From Dyadobacter sp. MSC1_007 (GTDB lineage Bacteria; Bacteroidota; Bacteroidia; Cytophagales; Spirosomataceae): 64,000 nucleotides of DNA. The notes beneath the pieces are model-generated. The model ran no database searches. It worked only from the letters and a program-made list of their open reading frames with translations, and was not told the DNA's origin. Position numbers and translations under genes: made by a program. Where the stretch lies: assembly GCF_023667495.1 (NCBI RefSeq), contig NZ_JAMOZL010000004.1, positions 372,001 through 436,000 on the forward strand, read 5' to 3'. Of this stretch, positions 14,899 through 31,717 are shown one piece after another (positions within the stretch are counted from its first letter, which is position 1; each line of letters opens with the position of its first letter).

Positions 14899-16053
14899 TT
14901 AAACTACTACCGCTGTCCGTGCCAGTTCTACCAGATCCGCATCGTTGACTTCTTTCTTCAAATCTGCTACTTCCAGGAACCGCGTATAAAGCTCATCAAG
15001 CGTTACTTTTTCAAAACTAAACCCTAAAAGCTCCAACCGGTGCTTCAATGCATGGCGGCCACTTCTGGCAGTAAGTACAATATCCGACTTATCAACTCCC
15101 ACATCGTGTGGATTCATGATTTCGTAGTTCAATGTGTTTTTCAGGAAGCCATCCTGGTGAATGCCCGACGAATGCGCGAATGCATTTCGTCCGACGATCG
15201 CCTTGTTTGCCTGTACTGGCATACGCATCATTTTGGACACCAATTGGCTGGTCGGATAAATGTGTTGCGTATTCACACCCGTTTCCAGGCCAAGTTCTTT
15301 GTGTACATTCAATGCCATCACCACTTCTTCCAGAGAGGTATTTCCGGCCCGTTCTCCGATACCGTTAATAGTCACTTCCACCTGGCGGGCTCCCTGATTA
15401 ATCCCTGCGATAGAGTTAGCCGTCGCAAGGCCCAAATCATTGTGACAGTGAATGGAAATTGTTGCTTTATGTATGTTCGAAACGTGTTCGAATATGTATT
15501 TGATCTTGCCACCATATTCGTCGGGAAGACAATAACCTGTCGTATCAGGAATGTTCACGACAGTTGCTCCCGCTCCGATCACCGCTTCCACCAACTGTGC
15601 CAGAAAAACCAGATCAGCGCGACCGGCATCTTCGCAGTAAAATTCAACATCCTCTACCTTGCTTTTTGCGTATTTCGTTGCTGCAATTGCCCTTTCGATG
15701 ATTTTCTCGCGCGTTGTATTGAATTTGTGCTGAATATGGATGTCGGATGAGCCGATACCCGTATGTATCCTGCCACGCCTTGCATATTGCAATGCGTCCG
15801 CAGCCGCGTCGATATCGCCCTGCACTGCACGCGAAAGCGCGCAAATGATCGGTTCGCGTACCGCTTTTGAAATTTCTACCACCGAACGGAAATCACCCGG
15901 ACTTGATACAGGAAAACCAGCTTCGATAATATCTACCCCTAGTACTTCGAGTTGCTTGGCTACAACAATCTTTTCTTCAGTAGTTAATTGGCTGCCTGGC
16001 ACCTGCTCGCCGTCTCGTAAAGTTGTGTCGAAGATCTGAACTCGATTACTCAT
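14899..16053 (-). CDS. leuA: 2-isopropylmalate synthase, short form without allosteric domain
   Basis: The first committed enzyme of leucine synthesis, joining acetyl-CoA and 2-ketoisovalerate. The catalytic TIM barrel is complete: [13 protein letters not shown] near the N-terminus, [13 protein letters not shown], the metal-ligand motif HCHNDLG, and [12 protein letters not shown]; the active-site segment [13 protein letters not shown] follows. The 384-residue protein ends after the subdomain helices and lacks the roughly 120-residue C-terminal LeuA dimerisation domain that binds leucine, so it should be insensitive to leucine feedback. Short forms of this kind occur in other Bacteroidota. The gene has its own promoter, leader peptide and attenuator 50-200 bases upstream. 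Confidence 0.93.
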
Positions 16054-16103: not shown

Positions 16104-16137
16104 ATATAAAACCCTTTCCTGATCGGGGAAAGGGTTT
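16104..16137 (-). terminator. Attenuator terminator upstream of leuA
   Basis: On the minus strand AAACCCTTTCC (16137-16127) and GGAAAGGGTTT (16119-16109) form a perfect 11-bp stem with a 7-base loop, followed by TATATT. It sits between the leader peptide and leuA. Its first arm can instead pair for 8 bp (16126-16133) with 16157-16164 just past the leader stop, giving an antiterminator. A further 7-bp pairing joins 16197-16203 (inside the leader) to 16153-16159. Confidence 0.78.
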
Positions 16138-16168: not shown

Positions 16169-16216
16169 TCACGGAATTATCTGAATTAGTAGATTTAGGT
16201 TATTTGTTGTTCTCAT
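16169..16216 (-). CDS. leuL: Leucine leader peptide of the leuA attenuator
   Basis: A 15-codon reading frame, MRTTNNLNLLIQIIP, with ATG at 16216-16214 and TGA at 16171-16169. Three of the codons are CTA leucine codons (positions 7, 9, 10) followed by three isoleucines. It is followed by mutually exclusive hairpins and a terminator before leuA. A ribosome stalled at codons 7-10 would cover the first pairing segment and leave 16157-16164 free to block the terminator; a ribosome that reaches the stop would cover 16157-16164 and allow termination. This is the organisation of enterobacterial leuL. No strong Shine-Dalgarno site is seen, which is normal for Bacteroidota. Translation is inferred, not shown. 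Confidence 0.72.
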   Translation of the reverse strand: MRTTNNLNLLIQIIP

Positions 16217-16256
16217 TTTAATTTTGCGAAAATTCGCTAACCGCGAGTTTCTTCTG

Positions 16257-21835: not shown

Positions 21836-22684
21836 TCACCCCTGCCGCTTCGGCGTCGTCCCGTACTTCTCTTTATAAGTCTTAATGAAGTGCGAAACGC
21901 TCTCATATCCAATCTCCGTGCTGATTTCGGAAACGTTTTTAGTACTATTCCTTAATAGAAAATCCGCATAGTCCAACCGTTTGTTTTTGAGCCATAATGC
22001 AGGCGAAGTATTGAATTCATCCTGAAAATCCCTCTTAAATGCCGATAAGCTTCGTCCAGACAACCGTGCGAGCTCGTTTAATGTCAACGGCTTCAAATAG
22101 TAACTGTTCATTAAAAATGAAAGATCTACCTTTTCCCCTTTATATAAACTATAAAGAATGGCCCTCAACTGCCAGGAATTGTCGAGTTCGAGCAAATGCA
22201 AGAGCAGTTCCTGAAATTTGAGGCGCAGGAAGTGGTTTTTTAAATCTGTGCGGGACCGGAAATAGGGAAATACAGATTGAATGAATTTCTCGAAATTTTC
22301 GTCCGACTTCAAAAGCAATATCGGGTACTCGACAGTCCCGGCATCTGGTTGTGCATTGAAGAGCTCGGGATGCAAGCCAACGAATTCTTTCAGCAACTTT
22401 TCATCAAAAAAGAAAACCAGGCTTTTGTAAGATTCATTAATAGATTCCGACATCAGGTAAAAACCCCTTTGAACGAACAGGATATCACCTTTTTCCACAT
22501 GAACCTCCTGTGTAGGGCTCGTAAACTTCTTTTCTCCCTCCAACACCACGATCACTGCATGTTCTTCGAAAAACACGTCGTATTTGGACGGATACACCTC
22601 ATTACGATACGCCACAAAGGTCATATCCTGAATTTTCAGGGACTCAAATTCCTGGGAGCTTATATCGGATGGTACTCGGAGCAT
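21836..22684 (-). CDS. AraC-family transcriptional regulator
   Basis: A 282-residue regulator. The N-terminal half is a cupin-like sensor (FFEEHAVIVVLEGEKKF, EVHVEKGDILFVQRG). The C-terminal 90 residues hold the two helix-turn-helices of AraC proteins: LNELARLSGRSLSAFKRDF and VSEISTEIGYESVSHFIKTY, followed by the signature ending KYGTTPKRQ. It lies 15 bases downstream of an outer-membrane protein gene with which it may be cotranscribed. Its ligand and targets are unknown; nothing ties it to branched-chain amino acid control. Confidence 0.9.
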   Translation of the reverse strand: MLRVPSDISSQEFESLKIQDMTFVAYRNEVYPSKYDVFFEEHAVIVVLEGEKKFTSPTQEVHVEKGDILFVQRGFYLMSESINESYKSLVFFFDEKLLKEFVGLHPELFNAQPDAGTVEYPILLLKSDENFEKFIQSVFPYFRSRTDLKNHFLRLKFQELLLHLLELDNSWQLRAILYSLYKGEKVDLSFLMNSYYLKPLTLNELARLSGRSLSAFKRDFQDEFNTSPALWLKNKRLDYADFLLRNSTKNVSEISTEIGYESVSHFIKTYKEKYGTTPKRQG

Positions 22685-22699
22685 CGGCGAGATTTTGCG

Positions 22700-23836
22700 C
22701 TATGGCTTTCTAAACAATGAGTTTAGATTAAGATAGTAATTAAGGCTAATTCGTGGCCTGTTAAAAAATGCAACGTCTGAGAATAGCGTATTGAAGTTTG
22801 CAAAATGGCTTATCTCCAGACTGAGTTTTCGGTTGTAGGCAATTCCCACGTGCGGACCGATAATCGTGCTTCTCCAGCTATCCATTGGATAACTATAATC
22901 CATTCCGATATTGGGTCTTATCTTGCCGGAACCAACGAAGACCCCAACGCCAAATTCCAGTGTTTTGAGATTGATTTTCTCATCAGGAATATAGTTGTAC
23001 ATCTTCGTTACCGATGTCCCCGGAATCATCGAGAAATTAATCTTGAAATACCGGTTGTGAAATCTCCGCGGTAGATTCATCCTTACCCCAACTCCAAAGG
23101 TCGCCTTATTTTCAAGTTTCAAACCCGGCTCCTTCCAGGCCTCTGTTCCTGCATTAAAATTAATATCAAATTCAAAATCGGATTCCGAAGAAACTCCGTT
23201 TTCGATCTTCTTCCCATCAAAAGATTCATTATAAGCATCAACGTATTTGCGGAGGCCCTTCTCACTATACATTGGCACCGACAAGTTCATTTCCGAACCC
23301 GACAACAGCCTGACCAATTGCTTTTTATATTGATCATAGGTGAGCAAATATTTCTTATTGCCCATTGTCCTGTAAAACGGATAATTGATTAATTCCGTTA
23401 ACTGCCCCGGAATTTCAAGGTAATAATGCGATTCGCTCTGCCCGTTAAGATGCTCAAATAAGGTCGCCCTTGAACCCGACGTGATAACTTTCAAAAATAC
23501 CATCACCGAGTCCTTCGCCTCGATAGAGGGCGCAATGGCATAGGTCTGACTCAGGTCAATGCTCAAAACACCGATTTTTTTACAAACATATTTCTCATTA
23601 ATGGCCTTGATATAGAATTCAGAGACCTGGCCACACCTCATGCTTTCAAACGGTCCTTGCTGGATACGGGCAAAATCGATTTTATCAGGGCTCATGTCCC
23701 AACCCTCGTACCTGATAAATCCTTGTGTGGTATCTTTTCCGGGAGAGAGAATATATCCCTCCAAAAATTTGCCCTGACCATGTACTGATACTGAAAAACA
23801 CAAACTTAAAAAGACAGAAAAACCTATAAAACGCAT
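22700..23836 (-). CDS. Exported outer-membrane beta-barrel protein, unknown function
   Basis: A 378-residue protein with a signal peptide (MRFIGFSVFLSLCFSVSVHG). The first half has a domain common in uncharacterised Bacteroidota proteins, recognised by GKDTTQGFIRYEGWDMSPDKI, in which a small-molecule or peptide-like interaction is possible but unproven. The second half (about 230-378) shows alternating amphipathic strands typical of a small barrel (FGVGVRMNLPRRFHNRYFKI, FGVGVFVGSGKIRPNIGMDY). It lies between ilvA and an AraC-family gene, likely as an insertion into the branched-chain amino acid cluster. Confidence 0.72.
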   Translation of the reverse strand: MRFIGFSVFLSLCFSVSVHGQGKFLEGYILSPGKDTTQGFIRYEGWDMSPDKIDFARIQQGPFESMRCGQVSEFYIKAINEKYVCKKIGVLSIDLSQTYAIAPSIEAKDSVMVFLKVITSGSRATLFEHLNGQSESHYYLEIPGQLTELINYPFYRTMGNKKYLLTYDQYKKQLVRLLSGSEMNLSVPMYSEKGLRKYVDAYNESFDGKKIENGVSSESDFEFDINFNAGTEAWKEPGLKLENKATFGVGVRMNLPRRFHNRYFKINFSMIPGTSVTKMYNYIPDEKINLKTLEFGVGVFVGSGKIRPNIGMDYSYPMDSWRSTIIGPHVGIAYNRKLSLEISHFANFNTLFSDVAFFNRPRISLNYYLNLNSLFRKP

Positions 23837-23874: not shown

Positions 23875-25131
23875 CTACACCATAAACTGAAACAAATCCG
23901 GCTGATCATTTAAATACTCATAAACGATACGGTTCGCGTCCATTCGCTCGATCAGCGGCGCGAAATCTTCGCGGTTTTTCAATTCAATGCCGACTAATGC
24001 AGGTCCTTGTTCGCGGTTGGTCTTTTTCACATATTCAAAACGCGCAATGTCGTCATTCGGGCCTAATACATTCAAGAATTCACGGAATGCACCGGAACGT
24101 TGCGGAAAACGGACGATAAAGTAATGCTTTAAGCCTTCGTAAAGTAGTGAGCGTTCTTTGATTTCCTCGGTGCGGGTAATGTCATTGTTGCCACCGCTGA
24201 TGAGCGCGACCACATTTTTCCCCCGGATTTCGTCCCGGATCAAGTCCAACGCCGAAACAGTTAATGCGCCGGCAGGCTCCGCCACAATGGCCTCTTCATT
24301 ATAAAGTTGCAGGATCGTTGAACAAACTTTGCCTTCCGGAACGAGCAGAACGCGGTTCAGGCTTTTACTGCATATTTCGTAGGTAATGTCTCCCGCACGC
24401 CTTACAGCTGCGCCATCCACAAATTTGTCAATGTAGTCTAGCGTAACTACATGACCTTCTTGTATAGATTTGTGCATTGACGGAGATCCTTCCGGCTCCA
24501 CACCGATTAGTTGCGTTTTAGGAGAAAGTTGCTTGAAAACAGTCGAGATGCCTGCCGCCAGCCCGCCGCCACCAATCGCCATCAGCAAATAATCGATCTT
24601 GAAATCCGCATCTTTGAAAATTTCCAAACCGACAGTCCCCTGACCTTCTATAACTTGCAAATCATCAAATGGATGCACGAAAACGGCATTGGTGACCTCG
24701 CGATATTCCATGGACGCGTGATAAGCGTCATCGTAAGTATCGCCTACCAAATGTATTTCGATCCATTCCTGCCCAAAAAGCCGCACTTGTTTTACTTTCT
24801 GCGCCGGCGTAGTCGTAGGCATGAAAATCGCTCCTTTCACCTCCATTTTCCTGCACGCATAGGCTACGCCCTGCGCGTGGTTGCCTGCACTCGCGCACAC
24901 GACCCCGCCCGCAAGGGCTTCCGCGGTCATGCTTGCCATTTTGTTGTAAGCGCCACGGATCTTGTAAGAGCGGACAGTCTGCAAATCTTCCCTTTTTAGA
25001 TAAATATTAGCGCCGTACTGCTCCGAAAGGTGTGCATTATAAAAAATAGGTGTGTGGTTAATCACGCCGCGCAGGCGTTCGGCGGCGAGGAAAATGTTAT
25101 CGAGTGTCGGGAGTGAATGTGAAGTGCTCAT
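23875..25131 (-). CDS. ilvA: Threonine ammonia-lyase (threonine dehydratase)
   Basis: A PLP enzyme of about 418 residues that deaminates threonine to 2-ketobutyrate for isoleucine. I start at 25131 (MSTSHSLPTLDNIFLAAERL); an ATG 33 bases upstream adds a segment that does not match the family. The PLP lysine is Lys57 in SYKIRGAYNK, the phosphate loop is GGGGLAAG, and SAGNHAQGVAYACR is the substrate loop. One ACT-like regulatory domain occupies the last 90 residues (HYFIVRFPQRSGAFREFL), as in the short IlvA class. It follows ilvC after a spacer with two hairpins. It runs in parallel with the citramalate route encoded downstream. Confidence 0.94.
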   Translation of the reverse strand: MSTSHSLPTLDNIFLAAERLRGVINHTPIFYNAHLSEQYGANIYLKREDLQTVRSYKIRGAYNKMASMTAEALAGGVVCASAGNHAQGVAYACRKMEVKGAIFMPTTTPAQKVKQVRLFGQEWIEIHLVGDTYDDAYHASMEYREVTNAVFVHPFDDLQVIEGQGTVGLEIFKDADFKIDYLLMAIGGGGLAAGISTVFKQLSPKTQLIGVEPEGSPSMHKSIQEGHVVTLDYIDKFVDGAAVRRAGDITYEICSKSLNRVLLVPEGKVCSTILQLYNEEAIVAEPAGALTVSALDLIRDEIRGKNVVALISGGNNDITRTEEIKERSLLYEGLKHYFIVRFPQRSGAFREFLNVLGPNDDIARFEYVKKTNREQGPALVGIELKNREDFAPLIERMDANRIVYEYLNDQPDLFQFMV

Positions 25132-25146
25132 AAGTATCAATGAAAA

Positions 25147-25169
25147 GAGCTTTGCTGTTGGCAAAGCTC
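25147..25169 (-). terminator. Terminator-like hairpin just before ilvA
   Basis: GAGCTTTGC (25147-25155) and GCAAAGCTC (25161-25169) form a perfect 9-bp stem with a 5-base loop, followed on the minus strand by TTTT. It sits 16 bases upstream of the ilvA ATG and could lower ilvA expression relative to ilvC. Confidence 0.6.
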
Positions 25170-25217: not shown

Positions 25218-26264
25218 TTAGCTGCGCTCTGGACGGAGGCCACGTACGGTGGTACCTGCCTGCCACATTTCTGATTCGCGCAATTCAGCCAGCTCTTCTT
25301 CCAGTTTCACACGGTAGTCAGGTTGTGAGTTACGCGTGATAGAGATCGTAGCTTGCTCGCCGCTTTTTACAGAGTTGTAAAGTTGTTCGAAAACAGGCTT
25401 GGTAGCGTCACGGAAAGGTTTCCACCAATCCAATGCGCCGCGCTGCGCAGTTGTAGAGCAGTTAGCGTACATCCAGTCCATACCATTTTCAGCAACCAAT
25501 GGCATCAACGACTGAGTCAATTCTTCCACTGTTTCGTTGAATGCTTCTGATGGTGTGTGGCCATTTGAACGCAACACTTCATATTGTGCTGCGAAAATAC
25601 CTTGGATAGCACCCATCAAAGTACCACGCTCACCGGTAAGGTCAGACGTTACTTCACGGTAAAAATCAGTTTCGAACAGGTAACCTGAACCTACACCGAT
25701 ACCCATTGCGATACATTTTTCACGCGCTTTGCCAGTTGCATCCTGGAATACCGCGAAAGAAGAGTTCAAGCCTTTTCCTTCTACGAACAAGCGGCGAAGT
25801 GAAGTTCCTGATCCTTTTGGAGCAACGAGATAAACATCCACGTCAGCAGGAGGAACGATGCCAGTCTGATCCTTATAAGTTACACCGAAACCATGTGAGA
25901 AATACAATGATTTTCCGGCAGTAAGGTGTTTCTTAACAGTCGGCCAAAGTTCGATCTGAGCAGCGTCAGAAAGAAGATAGCAAATGATAGTTCCTTTTGA
26001 AAGCGCTTCTTCGATGTCGAAAAGCGTTTCGCCTGGCACCCATCCGTCAGCAACGGCTTTGTCCCAAGACTTACCACCTTTACGCTGACCAACGATTACA
26101 TTGAAACCGTTGTCACGCATGTTCAAGCTTTGGCCTGGGCCTTGTACGCCGTAACCAATTACAGCGATAGTTTCAGTAGAAAGTACTTCACGTGCTTTTT
26201 CGAGTGGAAATTCTTCACGGGTTACTACTTCTTCTTCGACCCCGCCGAAATTTAATTTTGCCAT
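25218..26264 (-). CDS. ilvC: Ketol-acid reductoisomerase
   Basis: A 348-residue NADPH-dependent enzyme that isomerises and reduces acetolactate and acetohydroxybutyrate. The nucleotide-binding loop reads VIGYGVQGPGQ, with VGQRKGGKSWDKA as the cofactor-specificity loop; Arg, Lys and Ser there favour NADPH. The knotted C-terminal domain holds the metal ligands in the region SDLTGERGTLMGAIQG and later in ETVEELTQSLMP. Length is that of Bacteroidota IlvC. It is 64 bases downstream of ilvN and belongs to the ilvD-ilvB-ilvN-ilvC operon. Confidence 0.96.
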   Translation of the reverse strand: MAKLNFGGVEEEVVTREEFPLEKAREVLSTETIAVIGYGVQGPGQSLNMRDNGFNVIVGQRKGGKSWDKAVADGWVPGETLFDIEEALSKGTIICYLLSDAAQIELWPTVKKHLTAGKSLYFSHGFGVTYKDQTGIVPPADVDVYLVAPKGSGTSLRRLFVEGKGLNSSFAVFQDATGKAREKCIAMGIGVGSGYLFETDFYREVTSDLTGERGTLMGAIQGIFAAQYEVLRSNGHTPSEAFNETVEELTQSLMPLVAENGMDWMYANCSTTAQRGALDWWKPFRDATKPVFEQLYNSVKSGEQATISITRNSQPDYRVKLEEELAELRESEMWQAGTTVRGLRPERS

Positions 26265-26328: not shown

Positions 26329-26862
26329 CTATTGGTAATACTCCCATTCCGCTTCCGGAAGATAATCTACCAGTGTCTGAGGCGATTTGCTTACCGCGAC
26401 CCTTCCCGATCTTACAAATTCCAGGATCTCGTGGGGTTTGATATAGTCGAAAAATTCAAAGATCTCTTCTTCCGTACCCGTCTTCTGGATAATCACATAG
26501 GTGAGGTGCCAGTAAACGACCCAGGCCTTGTAAACCTTGTTAATGGTCTCGATATCCAAAGGTTTTGCACCAATAGGCGTAGAAACCTTGAACAATGCGA
26601 TCTCATTGTACGCAATGTCTTCATTAAGATACCCAAAAACAGCAAGTACTTCGATGATCTTACGGATCTGGCGGACAAGCTTCTCCACCGCATCGCGCGA
26701 CTCATGGCGAATGACGATCGTGAAGCGGGATATACCCTTACGTTCTGTTTCAGAAACTGTTAAGCTTTCGATATTGATCCGTCTCCGGGTGAATATCGTC
26801 GTGATCTTGTTGAGAATACCGATCGTATTTTCAGTAAAGACACAAATGGTGTATGATGTCAT
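26329..26862 (-). CDS. ilvN: Acetolactate synthase small (regulatory) subunit
   Basis: A 177-residue regulatory subunit that binds valine and activates the IlvB catalytic subunit. The N-terminal ACT domain reads YTICVFTENTIGILNKITTIFTRR and ESLTVSETERKGISRFTIV. The C-terminal domain (about 95-177) includes the DYIKPHEILEFVRSGRVAVS segment conserved in IlvH/IlvN proteins. It starts 18 bases after the ilvB stop and ends 64 bases before ilvC. Confidence 0.95.
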   Translation of the reverse strand: MTSYTICVFTENTIGILNKITTIFTRRRINIESLTVSETERKGISRFTIVIRHESRDAVEKLVRQIRKIIEVLAVFGYLNEDIAYNEIALFKVSTPIGAKPLDIETINKVYKAWVVYWHLTYVIIQKTGTEEEIFEFFDYIKPHEILEFVRSGRVAVSKSPQTLVDYLPEAEWEYYQ

Positions 26863-26880: not shown

Positions 26881-28641
26881 TTATTCAAGTCTGATATCCG
26901 CTACGCAAGCACCGGTTGGCACCATCGGAAACACATTTTCTTCTTTTTCAACCAAAACCTCCAACAGGTAGGGCTTGTCGGATGCCAGCATCTTGTCGAG
27001 CGAAGCATTCAAATCCTCACGCGCGCCGCAGGTGTGGCCGTCGATACCAAAACCTTTTGCAATGGTGATAAAATCAGGGTTTTGCAGTTCCACGAACGAA
27101 TAGCGTTTCTGATGGAAAAGCTGTTGCCACTGACGTACCATTCCAAGGAAATTGTTGTTCAGAATGATAATCTTCACCGGCAAACCGCTTTGCGCAATCG
27201 TGCCAAGCTCCTGAATCGTCATCTGGAAACAGCCATCGCCAATAATGGCAACCACTTCGCGATCGGGCGCTCCTACTTTTGCTCCAAATGAGGCAGGCAA
27301 TGCGTAACCCATTGTCCCCAAACCACCTGATGTAATGAAAGAGTTAGGCTTTCTGAACTGATAGTAACGCGCGGTCATCATCTGGTGCTGGCCCACGTCA
27401 GCCACTATCACCGCTTCACCTTTGGTTTTATTCGAAAGCGTACGGATCACTTCCGCCATTTTGATCTTCTCCGTTGTAGGCGCAAGCTCTGGCTGGGTGA
27501 TTTTTTGGTCTTCGATCACGTCGTATTTCTTGAATTCCGCTCTCCACGCCTCGTGATTGTTCTCTTTTACCAACGGCATCAGCATTTCCAGTGCCCTTTT
27601 TGCATCACCTACCACCGGCGCATCGGCCTTCATGATCTTGTCAATTTCGGCAGGATCTATTTCGATGTGTACAATCTTGGCTTGCTTCGCATAGCGGCTC
27701 AGATCGCCCGTCACACGGTCGTCAAAGCGCATGCCCACGGCGATGATCAGGTCGCATTGGTTCGTCAGCACATTGGTGCCATAGTTTCCGTGCATTCCCA
27801 GCCAGCCTACATAGTTAGGATGGTCCACCGACACAGACGAAAGGCCCAGTAGCGTAGAAGCGGCCGGAATATCTGTTTTTTCTATGAATTGGATCAACTC
27901 CTGCTCAGCATTGGAGATCTGCACACCATGCCCGAAGAACAGGAATGGACGTTTCGCCTGGTTGATCAGTTTGGCGGCAGCGGCGATCTGGTCTTCTTTT
28001 GGTGAAAGGCGCGGGTGATAACTGATCAGCTTCTCGCACTTTTTGTGGACAAACGGCCTGGTCATCAACTTTTGCTGTGCATCCTTTGTAATATCGATCA
28101 AAACCGGACCCGGACGGCCAGATTTTGCTATATAAAATGCTTTGGCGATGATCTCAGGGATTTCATCTGCATAGGTGATCTGGTAGTTCCATTTAGTGAT
28201 CGGAATGGTAATACCCATTACGTCCGTTTCCTGGAATGCATCCGTACCCAGCAAATGCGAGGCTACCTGACCGATAATGCAAACCATCGGCGTAGAGTCG
28301 ATGATCGCATCGGCAATGCCGGTAACCAGGTTGGTTGCTCCGGGGCCAGACGTAACCAGGCACACCCCCACTTCTCCAGTGATCCGTCCAAAACCTTCGG
28401 CCGCGTGCGCTGCGCCTTGCTCATGGCGCACCAGAATATGGTTTATCTGGTCCTGATAATCATAGATCGCATCATATACCGGCATAATGGCCCCGCCCGG
28501 ATAACCGAATATGGTTTGCACACCTTCCGCGATCAAAGACTGGATCACTGCATGTGAACCATTAATTAATTCCGGAGCCGCCACCGATACCACCGGTTCC
28601 GAAGCCTGAATTGTTGCAGTTTGATTTTCATTAAATCCCAT
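26881..28641 (-). CDS. ilvB: Acetolactate synthase large (catalytic) subunit
   Basis: A 586-residue thiamine-diphosphate enzyme that makes acetolactate and acetohydroxybutyrate. The catalytic Glu lies in VRHEQGAAHAAEGFGR near the N-terminus, and the ThDP-magnesium motif is GDGCFQMTIQELGTIAQSG with ILNNNFLGMVRQWQ. The FAD-containing middle domain includes FFGHGVQISNAEQEL. Length is typical. It is 14 bases after a small unknown gene and precedes ilvN by 18 bases. Confidence 0.97.
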   Translation of the reverse strand: MGFNENQTATIQASEPVVSVAAPELINGSHAVIQSLIAEGVQTIFGYPGGAIMPVYDAIYDYQDQINHILVRHEQGAAHAAEGFGRITGEVGVCLVTSGPGATNLVTGIADAIIDSTPMVCIIGQVASHLLGTDAFQETDVMGITIPITKWNYQITYADEIPEIIAKAFYIAKSGRPGPVLIDITKDAQQKLMTRPFVHKKCEKLISYHPRLSPKEDQIAAAAKLINQAKRPFLFFGHGVQISNAEQELIQFIEKTDIPAASTLLGLSSVSVDHPNYVGWLGMHGNYGTNVLTNQCDLIIAVGMRFDDRVTGDLSRYAKQAKIVHIEIDPAEIDKIMKADAPVVGDAKRALEMLMPLVKENNHEAWRAEFKKYDVIEDQKITQPELAPTTEKIKMAEVIRTLSNKTKGEAVIVADVGQHQMMTARYYQFRKPNSFITSGGLGTMGYALPASFGAKVGAPDREVVAIIGDGCFQMTIQELGTIAQSGLPVKIIILNNNFLGMVRQWQQLFHQKRYSFVELQNPDFITIAKGFGIDGHTCGAREDLNASLDKMLASDKPYLLEVLVEKEENVFPMVPTGACVADIRLE

Positions 28642-28903: not shown

Positions 28904-30589
28904 TTACGCTTCGTCAGTCACGCAACCTTCGCTGGCTGATTTCACGGTTCTGATATATCTTCCAAGCATTCCTTTTGTAAAGCGCGGCGCGGGTTGTACC
29001 CACTGTGCTTTCCTGGCTGCCATTTCTTCGTCGGAAATATGTAATGTCAGTTCGCGGGTATTGGCGTCGATGGTGATGCGGTCTCCATCTTTGACGAGAG
29101 CAATAGGCCCTCCGTCAAATGCTTCCGGTGTGATATGTCCCACTACGAAACCATGCGTTCCGCCTGAGAACCGACCATCCGTAATCAATGCAATCTTATC
29201 GCCCAGACCAGCGCCCATTACAGCCGAAGTCGGTTTCAACATTTCTGACATTCCAGGGCCTCCTTTTGGACCTGCATTACGAATCACAACCACATGCCCT
29301 GCCTTAATTTCACCTTTTGAAAGCATAGTAATGATCTCCGACTCATGCTCGCAAACCTTAGCCTCTCCGTCGAAAGTCATTCCCTCTTTACCGGTAATCT
29401 TGGCAACAGCACCTGTTGGCGTCAGGTTACCGTACATGATCTGGATATGACCGCTCGATTTAATTGGTGTTTCAAGCGGCAAAACCATTTTTTGTGTCTC
29501 AAAATTAAGATCCGGCGCTTCTGCTAGGTCTTCCGCCAGCGTTCTGCCGGTTACTGTCAGACATTCACCGTGGATCAAGCCTTTTGAATACAAATATTTC
29601 ATCACCGCAGGAACACCACCAATTCCAAGCAGGTCTTCCATGTAGTATTTACCGCTCGGTTTAAGATCAGCAATGAACGGAACCCTGTCCGAAATCTCCT
29701 GAATATCATTTAATGTCAACCAAAGGCCCGCTGAACGTGCAATCGCAAGAAAGTGAAGCGCGGCATTAGTTGAACCTCCAAGCGCCATTACCACTGTCAA
29801 GGCATTTTCGAGCGACTTTTTAGTGATAATATCCTTTGGTGTAATGTTCAATTCGAGCAACTTTTTCATGGCTGCACCGATCTTTTTGCATTCTTCCTGT
29901 TTACCCTCGTGGGTAGCCGGATACGAACTGCTGAAGGGCAAGCTCAACCCCATCGCTTCGATAGACGCAGCCATTGTATTGGCCGTGTACATGCCGCCGC
30001 AAGCTCCCTGACCAGGGATCGAATTTTGAATTACTCCTTTAAAATCTTCGTCTGAAATGTTGTTGGCAAACTTTTTACCCAAAGCTTCAAATGCAGAAAC
30101 AATGTCCAGTTTTTGACCTTTATAATGTCCTGAACGGATCGTACCGCCGTAAACCATGATCGCCGGACGGTCCAGACGCGCCATTGCCATCACAGCACCA
30201 GGCATATTTTTATCACAACCAACCACCGCAATTACACCGTCGTACCATTGTGCGGCAACCACAGTTTCGATGGAATCCGCGATAATGTCACGACTCGGCA
30301 GTGAGTAACGCATTCCATCGTTACCATTAGTCATACCATCCGACACGCCGATCGTATTGAAAATCAACCCCACCATATTGTTGGCGGTCACACCTTGTTT
30401 TACATACACCGACAGGCCATTCAGGTGCATATTGCAAGGGTTACCTTCATAACCTGTACTTGCAATACCGATTTGGGGCTTAGCAAAATCTTCTTCTTTC
30501 AAACCGATGCCGTAAAGCATTGCTTGTGCGGCTGGATTGGTTACTTCCTGGGTTAAGGTCTTCGAAAATCTGTTTAATTCTGTGGCCAT
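28904..30589 (-). CDS. ilvD: Dihydroxy-acid dehydratase
   Basis: A 561-residue Fe-S enzyme that makes the 2-keto acid precursors of valine and isoleucine. Cluster and metal segments are visible: SEGE-like region [33 protein letters not shown], and [19 protein letters not shown]; the C-terminal half includes [20 protein letters not shown]. Length and order are typical. It is the first structural gene of the ilv operon. Its ATG lies about 22 bases past a terminator that belongs to a leader-peptide attenuator. Confidence 0.97.
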
Positions 30590-30610
30590 GGTGAAAATTG
30601 TATTTAAAAT

Positions 30611-30643
30611 AAAAACACCTCACTCGGTTAGGTGAGTGAGGTG
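30611..30643 (-). terminator. Attenuator terminator upstream of ilvD
   Basis: On the minus strand CACCTCACTC (30643-30634) and GAGTGAGGTG (30625-30616) form a perfect 10-bp stem with an 8-base loop, followed by TTTTTATTTT. Reading through it is needed to reach ilvD. Its first arm overlaps 30632-30640, which can pair for 9 bp (one G-U) with 30662-30670, giving an antiterminator. Confidence 0.85.
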
Positions 30644-30655
30644 CCAGATATATGC

Positions 30656-30689
30656 TATCGTCCCACTCACGCTTTAACGCGTGACGATA
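30656..30689 (-). promoter_or_regulatory. Pause/antiterminator segments 1 and 2 of the ilv leader
   Basis: Segment 1 (30679-30689, inside the end of the leader peptide) pairs with segment 2 (30656-30672): TATCGTC/GACGATA forms 7 bp and ACGC/GCGT a further 4 bp around a six-base bulge. Segment 2 can instead pair with the terminator arm at 30632-30640. The leader codons Val13-Val17 overlap segment 1. Confidence 0.7.
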
Positions 30690-30733
30690 AGTAGTACCGG
30701 GAGGACGTTTATTGATTTCAACCAGCGTAACAT
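30674..30733 (-). CDS. ilvL: Branched-chain amino acid leader peptide of the ilvD attenuator
   Basis: A 19-codon frame MLRWLKSINVLPVLLIVTR with ATG at 30733-30731 and TAA at 30676-30674. Ten of the 19 residues are Leu, Ile or Val, and Val-Leu-Leu-Ile-Val runs without break at 13-17. It is followed by a 1:2 hairpin, an alternative 2:3 pairing and a 3:4 terminator before ilvD, the layout of the enterobacterial ilvGMEDA and ilvBN leaders. A ribosome stalled in 13-17 would leave 30662-30670 free to pair with the terminator arm; one at the stop codon would cover it. Translation is inferred from codon content and structure. Confidence 0.8.
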   Translation of the reverse strand: MLRWLKSINVLPVLLIVTR

Positions 30734-30773
30734 TTATATTTAGCGAAATTTCGCTGTTTTAAACATTGTGTTA

Positions 30774-30805
30774 CAAATTAGAAGCCATTCTTTTTATTTT
30801 CCAAA
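30774..30805 (-). promoter_or_regulatory. Candidate promoter of the ilv operon
   Basis: On the minus strand TTTG (30805-30802) lies 21 bases before TAATTTG (30780-30774), a near match to the Bacteroidota TTTG/TAnnTTTG promoter with one base missing in the -7 box. It would start transcription about 35 bases before the leader ATG. Confidence 0.45.
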
Positions 30806-30884
30806 CATTTGAAGGATTTTTTGTTATAAATCTATGATAAATACCAAATTTCCTCGGGGTAGACGATCGTTATCGGAAAAGATT

Positions 30885-30913: not shown

Positions 30914-31717
30914 ATGATGACTACCGAAGCCTCTTCAAACTATAATGATCTCGAGAAAATGAGCGTCAACGACATCCTGACCTCTATTAACCGCGAAGAT
31001 CAGACTGTACCAAACGCCGTCAAAAAAGCGATTCCGCAAATTGAGGCACTGGTGGAGCAGATTGTGCCTAGAATGAAGAATGGAGGCCGGTTATTTTACA
31101 TTGGTGCGGGTACGAGCGGCAGGCTCGGAGTTGTGGATGCTTCTGAATGCCCTCCAACTTTCGGCGTGCCGTTCGATCTCGTAGTGGGCATTATTGCAGG
31201 TGGTGATACCGCGATCCGAAAAGCCGTTGAAAACGCAGAAGATGATTGGAACCAGGCCTGGAAAGACCTAGCTGCTTACAGCCCCAATACAAATGATACA
31301 TTAATAGGCATTGCCGCCTCGGGACGGACGCCTTACGTGATCGGCGGTTTGAACGAAGCCAGAAATGCAGGATTATTGACAGGGTGCGTCGTTTGTAACG
31401 ACGGTTCAGCTGTCGCCAAAGCAGCTGAATATCCGGTTGAAGTAGTAGTAGGCCCCGAGTTTTTAACCGGTAGCACCCGAATGAAATCCGGAACGGCCCA
31501 AAAGCTGGTCCTGAATATGATCTCTACTTCGGTTATGATCCGATTGGGCAAAGTGAAAGGCAATAAAATGGTCGATATGCAGCTCACCAATGAAAAGCTG
31601 GTCAATAGGGCGTTGCACATGATCATTGATGAGCTTAACATTTCTCCCGACGAAGCACAATCGCTGCTCGACGAGCACGGCAGCGTCCGCGCCGCTATCG
31701 AGGCTGTAAGAAAATAG
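30914..31717 (+). CDS. murQ: N-acetylmuramic acid 6-phosphate etherase
   Basis: A 267-residue SIS-domain lyase that cleaves the lactyl ether of MurNAc-6-phosphate during cell-wall recycling. Family segments are GAGTSGRLGVVDASECPPTF, IGIAASGRTPYVIGGL and TGSTRMKSGTAQKLVLNMIST. The protein is slightly shorter than the roughly 300-residue proteobacterial enzyme, usual for Bacteroidota. Either of two adjacent ATGs could be the start. It diverges from the ilv leader and ends with its stop directly abutting the stop of the convergent oxidoreductase gene. Confidence 0.93.
   Translation: MMTTEASSNYNDLEKMSVNDILTSINREDQTVPNAVKKAIPQIEALVEQIVPRMKNGGRLFYIGAGTSGRLGVVDASECPPTFGVPFDLVVGIIAGGDTAIRKAVENAEDDWNQAWKDLAAYSPNTNDTLIGIAASGRTPYVIGGLNEARNAGLLTGCVVCNDGSAVAKAAEYPVEVVVGPEFLTGSTRMKSGTAQKLVLNMISTSVMIRLGKVKGNKMVDMQLTNEKLVNRALHMIIDELNISPDEAQSLLDEHGSVRAAIEAVRK

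Follow-up and report, generated by a model that had tools for sequence, protein, structure and literature searches.

Leader-peptide attenuation is known from Escherichia coli and is little described in Bacteroidota. The work of Vitreschak et al. from 2004 reportedly included Bacteroidetes/Chlorobi. In the attenuators of the enterobacterial ilv and leu operons, a leader rich in the product amino acids is combined with mutually exclusive 1:2, 2:3 and 3:4 pairings and a terminator before the first gene, and the leader contains the rare Leu codon CTA; all these traits recur upstream of the Dyadobacter ilvD gene described here. In contrast to the enterobacterial leaders, the Dyadobacter leader has no detectable sequence or Rfam match, is much shorter than ilvL of E. 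coli, precedes genes in the order ilvDBNCA and is separated from its predicted promoter by an operator-like double box. A further difference is that a Shine-Dalgarno-led start is not expected in Bacteroidota, the ribosomes of which are described as not using Shine-Dalgarno pairing (PMC9976891). Within the same phylum, “strong clues” for leader-peptide attenuation before amino-acid operons were reported for Flavobacterium psychrophilum (PMC9723704), which means that the same mechanism has been proposed there for amino-acid biosynthesis operons; an ilv leader is not named, with 0 occurrences of “ilv” in the main text of that report. Leader-like short frames are also mentioned for Bacteroides thetaiotaomicron (PMC7366714). 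The Bacteroid-trp RNA motif RF01692 (PMC2864571) is a cis-regulatory RNA of Bacteroidetes that is linked by its name to tryptophan genes, whereas the window, i.e., the whole stretch of 64,000 nucleotides that was analysed, and the leaders of three trpE loci of the genus (L183, L187, and L196) have no Rfam match. Among the matches listed from the open-access literature, no description of this ilvD leader or operator was recognised.

The host of the window is a Dyadobacter-like soil bacterium, and nine named Dyadobacter loci (L002-L008, L020, and L021) show 92-95% IlvD identity. The genus set used below consists of 48 genomes including the window's own. The operon is encoded on the minus strand in the order ilvDBNCA, followed further on by leuC, a leuD-like gene, a citramalate-synthase-like gene, leuB and a short leuA, and the following genes were assigned with model scores above cut-off:

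28904-30589, minus strand: ilvD, dihydroxy-acid dehydratase (TIGR00110)
26881-28641, minus strand: ilvB, acetolactate synthase large subunit (TIGR00118)
26329-26862, minus strand: ilvN, acetolactate synthase small subunit (TIGR00119)
25218-26264, minus strand: ilvC, ketol-acid reductoisomerase (TIGR00465)
23875-25164, minus strand: ilvA, threonine ammonia-lyase (TIGR02079)
14899-16053, minus strand: leuA, 2-isopropylmalate synthase without a LeuA_dimer domain (NF002086; Pfam)

Two further minus-strand genes lie between ilvA and leuC (21836-23836), one for an AraC/ExsA-like regulator (21836-22684) and one for a 378-aa protein without Pfam or NCBIfam match (22700-23836). The upstream neighbour of ilvD, encoding N-acetylmuramic acid 6-phosphate etherase (30914-31717), is divergent, and therefore the terminator before ilvD can act on the ilvD transcript only.

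The feature upstream of ilvD is very probably a classical ribosome-mediated (leader-peptide) transcription attenuator of the ilvDBNCA operon, as had been proposed in the initial annotation of this interval, and consists of the following parts:

30674-30733, minus strand: leader frame as first given, MLRWLKSINVLPVLLIVTR plus stop, read from the sequence
30674-30721, minus strand: conserved leader core, 15 codons from TTG 30721 plus stop; in alignment A2 this TTG is orthologous to the ATG of the relatives
30679-30684, minus strand: segment 1, conserved inner part, each base pair with 30667-30672 forming in 44 to 46 of the 46 sequences of the genus
30662-30672, minus strand: segment 2, of which 30662-30670 pairs with segment 3 in the antiterminator
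30632-30643, minus strand: segment 3, 5' arm of the terminator by pairing in the genus alignment
30616-30625, minus strand: segment 4, 3' arm of the terminator by pairing in the genus alignment
30606-30615, minus strand: T-rich tract of the terminator, read from the sequence

The terminator stem had been described as 30643-30634 paired with 30625-30616, and this is indeed a perfect stem of 10 bp followed by TTTTTATTTT; the 2:3 pairing given for 30670-30662 with 30640-30632 likewise exists, with 9 bp including one G-U. The originally longer 1:2 stem has to be shortened, as its inner part (30684-30679 with 30672-30667) is conserved whereas the outer part (30688-30685 with 30660-30657) is not, its four base pairs being possible in only 17, 36, 18, and 39 of the 46 sequences. 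A terminator is present in 46 of the 48 genus ilvD upstream regions, and these 46 sequences make up alignment A2, from which the two without attenuator (L114 and L125) were left out. The alignment of relatives contains both the kept pairings and the kept Leu/Ile/Val codons that the initial annotation had led one to expect. For the inner 1:2 and the 3:4 stems together, 98.0% of the cells are paired compared to 31-56% for slid structures, and 7 cells have both sides changed compared to 1.1 in shuffles; counted as pairs, two are changed on both sides, a number reached by 54 of 500 shuffles. The 2:3 duplex is paired in 98.8% of the cells compared to 40-52% after sliding, and it is nearly invariant with zero changes on both sides among the 46 sequences, which is conservation and not covariation. 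This near-invariance of segments 2 and 3 is expected, because each of them has two partners. Taken by itself, the 2:3 duplex of the window does not exceed shuffles at 0.05 (p 0.119); the RNA fold of 30733-30600 is stronger than all 200 of 200 shuffles (z -3.7). When both strands of the 64-kb window were scanned for a terminator with a preceding short ATG frame of at least 40% Leu/Ile/Val, two places were found, ilvD and leuA, whereas the same scan on 20 dinucleotide shuffles of the window left 17 without any match and gave four matches in total in the other three.

The 19-codon frame at 30733-30674 on the minus strand is present as it had been annotated, reading MLRWLKSINVLPVLLIVTR before the stop with 10 of 19 residues being Leu, Ile or Val. 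Its position holds, but its start is uncertain, since the ATG of the relatives' leaders aligns in A2 with TTG 30721, which leaves a conserved peptide of 15 codons. The ATG at 30733 overlaps the conserved TTACGCT, and the corresponding ATG opens a three-codon frame with an immediate stop in five of the 48 genus genomes. It seems that ATG 30733 is either a start specific to this genome or is not used for initiation, and the predicted leader peptide is accordingly uncertain in its start, being either a 15-mer from TTG or a 19-mer from ATG 30733. An ATG leader was called in 45 of 48 genus ilvD upstream regions by a script that used the best-scoring terminator only; one more locus, L083, has a GTG leader (by eye). 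L083 belongs to the nearest relative by IlvD (97%), and there the GTG-started leader is accompanied by a rebuilt 1:2 hairpin (by eye), which suggests that start codons of the leader turn over rapidly in the vicinity of this genome. Among the 42 genus leaders ending in VT, the positions -1 to -4, -6, and -7 before the final Val are Leu, Ile or Val in 79-90%, and position -5 is Pro in 21. The Leu/Ile/Val codons vary within their class, but the final Val is GTC in all 42 of these leaders, which is expected because this codon forms part of the hairpin. The rare Leu codon CTA makes up 23 of 35 Leu codons at position -3 of the genus leaders compared to 4% in seven genes of the cluster. Also leuL of E. 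coli uses this rare codon.

Besides the attenuator, which the initial annotation had recognised, the interval 30611-30805 holds a second, DNA-like control element that had been missed:

30802-30805, minus strand: -33-like TTTG of the predicted promoter, with TTTGGAAAAnA around it in 48 of 48 genus genomes
30774-30780, minus strand: -7-like TAATTTG of the predicted promoter, with a comparable box in 48 of 48 genus genomes when a loose pattern is applied
30742-30755, minus strand: palindrome AGCGAAATTTCGCT, a probable operator, with AGCGAAWWTTCGCT in 48 of 48 genus ilvD upstream regions
30724-30730, minus strand: half-box TTACGCT, located past the palindrome at an end-to-end distance of 18 bp, with T[ACT]CG[CT] at the exact offset in 48 of 48

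The promoter consensus of Bacteroidota is TTTG at -33 and TAnnTTTG at -7; the -7 box of the window matches the latter imperfectly, and transcription would start near 30770. In the genus, L114 and L125 have lost leader and terminator at ilvD and kept promoter, palindrome and half-box, the latter also at the exact 18-bp offset. Both loci can be regarded as natural deletion controls. Outside the genus, AGCGAAWWTTCGCT is found in 14 of 15 loci titled Spirosoma, Fibrella, Fibrivirga, Larkinella or Lacihabitans (the exception is L034), located 29 to 45 bases before ilvD. In the own genome the palindrome occurs within one mismatch at two places, ilvD and leuA, and the idea of a genome-wide motif was rejected on this count. 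GCGAAWWTTCGC occurs 139 times in 61 family genomes compared to 49 times for the reversed control, and when the sites were sorted for 30 of the 61 genomes, 40 of 75 lay near neither ilvD nor leuA. Among the family upstream regions with an exact box, a full second box lies 17 bp before the first in 10 of 38 at ilvD and 10 of 23 at leuA. Seven family genomes (L269-L274 and L334) carry two box copies 240-242 bp apart upstream of ilvD, a spacing close to whole helix turns (23), which suggests a DNA loop. In L272 and L273 a perfect inverted repeat of much greater length is centred on the upstream copy (by eye) and is perhaps also the terminator of the upstream gene.

A second copy of palindrome, leader and terminator precedes leuA in the same window:

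16225-16238, minus strand: second copy of the palindrome, AGCGAATTTTCGCA on this strand, within one mismatch in 21 of 21 genus leuA upstream regions
16169-16216, minus strand: leuA leader frame MRTTNNLNLLIQIIP plus stop, with an ATG leader in 21 of 21 genus leuA upstream regions
16111-16135, minus strand: terminator hairpin of the leuA leader, by terminator scan and in the genus leuA upstream regions

Box, terminator and ATG leader are together present in all 21 genus leuA upstream regions tested, among them those of G021 and G034 (L164 and L165), the two genomes that have lost the ilvD attenuator. In the hand-thinned sets of 21 leuA and 53 ilvD leaders, the Val share is 2.8% at leuA compared to 16.8% at ilvD, and the Leu share 31% compared to 20%. 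Low Val and high Leu in the leuA leader are expected if each leader senses its own products.

In the family, a script requiring at least 30% Leu/Ile/Val called an attenuator at ilvD in 27 of 59 and at leuA in 20 of 60 genomes, with differing stem sequences and a background of 2 in 1190 shuffled upstream regions. The 2:3 duplex beats shuffles at 0.05 in 11 of the 27 ilvD and 16 of the 20 leuA attenuators. Predicted ilvD attenuators occur in other Bacteroidota families as well. Of 80 named ilvD loci, 71 are not from Dyadobacter, and 14 of these have a terminator with an ATG leader of at least 40% Leu/Ile/Val, which is not a rate, as the upstream sequence is often not an operon start in the other loci. 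In Flavobacteriia, for instance, ilvD frequently does not head its operon. As the best-scoring terminator alone was used here, too, L024 received the leader of another, more upstream terminator and L028 none. The 14 loci belong to Rhabdobacter, three Runella, a Siphonobacter MAG, a Cytophagaceae MAG (L029), an Arcicella MAG, Sinomicrobium, L037 and L038 (titled Cellulophaga sp., Cytophagales), a Lewinella MAG, a Bacteroidetes MAG (L066) and two Saprospiraceae MAGs (L067 and L076). No ilvD attenuator was found in the named ilvD loci of Spirosoma, Fibrella and Larkinella, and some Spirosoma-like genomes keep an attenuator at leuA. At hisG, no leader was seen by eye in the 13 loci viewed out of 20.

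The candidate protein for binding the palindrome is an XRE helix-turn-helix protein with an IrrE-like domain, a C-X2-C-X4-C motif and a further Cys. The own copy (L316, positions 928-2418 of that locus) exceeds the cut-offs of Pfam HTH_3 and Peptidase_M78, and the Cys motif is present in 20 of 21 regulator frames extracted from 30 loci, the exception being cut by a contig end. Domain plan and Cys motif are common to this protein and the ScfR/IsaR regulators PrpR and RamB (PMC6765138, PMC10370305). ScfR sites are described as commonly consisting of two near-identical boxes, with a spacer of 18 bp for RamB of Paracoccus (PMC10370305), whereas the end-to-end distance of the boxes here is 17-18 bp and the gap between them thus 5-6 bp. 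Further likenesses are the paired near-identical boxes as such and the location of the regulator gene, which adjoins malate synthase in three genera; different from PrpR and RamB are the targets, here ilvD and leuA, and the similarity is distant. Outside the helix-turn-helix the match to PrpR is a weak profile match (E 0.0013), and L316 reaches 46.9 bits with the curated RamB model, the cut-off of which is 700. The own regulator is accordingly not RamB itself and can be assumed to be a distant relative at most.

Strong matches to the regulator occur in 54 of the 61 family genomes. Of the genomes with the regulator, 49 of 53 carry a box with at most one mismatch upstream of ilvD, compared to 0 of 6 without it (Fisher p 4.7e-6), a contrast that counts genomes and not independent events and in which an ilvD hit is absent in g26 and in the regulator-bearing G081. 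The genomes without regulator fall in the genera g13, g21, g26, and g31, of which g21 also holds one with it. The four genomes of the 53 that have the regulator without such an ilvD box are G053 and G054, with a box at leuA, and G079 and G092, with a box beside the regulator gene. A box just before the regulator gene is found in 10 of 30 regulator loci, and in three genera (six loci) box copies lie between the regulator gene and malate synthase; copies also precede genes for PEP carboxykinase and GAPDH. Sites near malate synthase with the XRE regulator, GAPDH and PEP carboxykinase were seen in L275-L280 and L282-L288, as was a box between an SCP2-domain gene and a TonB-receptor-like gene, and a gluconeogenesis/glyoxylate regulon is possible for these sites. 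The own regulator locus has no box copy (best 3 of 12 mismatches), and autoregulation is thus unsupported in this genome. In L316 and L317, both Dyadobacter, the regulator gene adjoins leuS for leucyl-tRNA synthetase (named by eye from the sequence), which was rejected as a general arrangement because it occurs in just these 2 of 30 loci.

Because the palindrome is kept despite loss of the attenuator, is found again before leuA and occurs together with the regulator, it is probably the operator of this putative ScfR-type regulator. It is unlikely that the palindrome instead acts at the RNA level, as a hairpin with a role in leader function or transcript stability. Such a role would agree with its place immediately ahead of the leader in the predicted transcript and with its ability to fold as 5 bp with a 4-nt loop, but the fold is weak (-6 kcal/mol, z -1.65), and it is the letters and not merely the pairing that are kept before two unrelated genes. 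Moreover, an RNA hairpin does not account for the half-box, found in 48 of 48 genomes at the fixed distance of 18 bp, for the second full box 17 bp away in a subset of the family, or for palindromes before genes without attenuators, including the regulator gene, and it does not explain why the palindrome tracks the regulator.

For the attenuator itself, the reading as a ribosome-controlled switch that was put forward initially has gained support, as leader, Leu/Ile/Val codons and pairings are kept among the relatives and the geometry of the ribosome footprint fits. The leader frame, its amino acids, the pairings and the order of the parts are conserved. A ribosome covers about 12 nt downstream of its codon (PMC4833913), and with this footprint a ribosome at Val17 (30685-30683) covers the transcript to about 30671 and leaves the 2:3 strand 30670-30662 free, whereas a ribosome at the stop (30676-30674) reaches about 30662, so that the whole strand is masked. 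From promoter, leader translation and stalling to termination and readthrough, we infer the following course. The ribosome would begin the leader peptide behind the polymerase. With plentiful charged Leu, Ile and Val tRNAs it would reach the stop at 30676 and hide segment 2, so that the 3:4 terminator (30643-30616) could form and most transcripts would end before ilvD. If Leu, Ile or Val is short, the ribosome would wait in the LPVLLIV run and hide segment 1, segment 2 would pair with segment 3, and with the terminator blocked ilvD would be transcribed. On a leader without ribosome, 1:2 and 3:4 would form and transcription would end. The identical circuit is proposed for leuA in the same window.

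It is very unlikely that the terminator is switched by a T-box, a riboswitch or an RNA-binding protein and that the short frame is incidental. The poorly kept leader start, TTG in this genome and GTG in its nearest relative (by eye), would fit such a frame, but Leu, Ile and Val are kept in the coding frame only, making up 360 of 675 residues (53%) there compared to 86 of 675 (13%) and 63 of 675 (9%) in the other frames of 44 distinct genus leaders, and the Val and Leu contents diverge between ilvD and leuA leaders in line with their pathways. A T-box, a riboswitch or a known Rfam leader was rejected, as no Rfam family matches window or leader, with 0 matches at gathering score in the window and 0 up to E 1 in 30560-30860. 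Hardly credible is a constitutive brake on ilvD with the leader as an old, decaying relic, because the clean loss of the attenuator in two genus genomes (L114 and L125) and its absence at ilvD in Spirosoma-type genomes, which would suit a relic, are set against segments 2 and 3 and a final Val codon position that hardly vary among 46 genomes, a constraint not needed by a relic, and against the attenuator that both genomes without one at ilvD keep at leuA (L164 and L165).

Taking ribosome-mediated attenuation and the probable operator together, we regard it as somewhat more likely than not that, in the Dyadobacter/Spirosoma family, two layers of control are stacked on branched-chain amino acid synthesis at both ilvD and leuA. 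The first layer would be an ScfR-type regulator with an iron-sulphur cluster and acyl-CoA sensing, which binds a double-box operator (GCGAAWWTTCGC and a box 17-18 bp away) where the transcript starts and reports the carbon state, and the leader peptide would then report charged Leu, Ile and Val tRNA, the two layers being gained and lost independently. Spirosoma keeps only the operator at ilvD, genomes such as G067 and G105, which have no regulator, contain attenuators only, and Dyadobacter has both. The LeuA enzyme uses acetyl-CoA, and the enzymes encoded by ilvD and leuC use iron-sulphur clusters. The operator suggests the recruitment to branched-chain amino acid synthesis of a regulator family known from the metabolism of acetate and propionate, and it is the operator, which may be new, and not the attenuator that is the newer and less expected part of this locus. 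The ilvD leader represents a well-supported and directly testable case of amino-acid attenuation in Bacteroidota. Since leader-peptide attenuation needs a ribosome close behind the polymerase, such leaders are natural reporters of transcription-translation coupling in this phylum. Leaders of a related kind were seen by eye at trpE in the genus, where six loci cover the gene start (L182, L183, L187, L190, L196, and L202) and five more (L184, L186, L189, L192, and L201, with L186 from the own genome) are intragenic only: five of the six leaders contain WWW and the one of L202 contains WW, each followed by a strong terminator.
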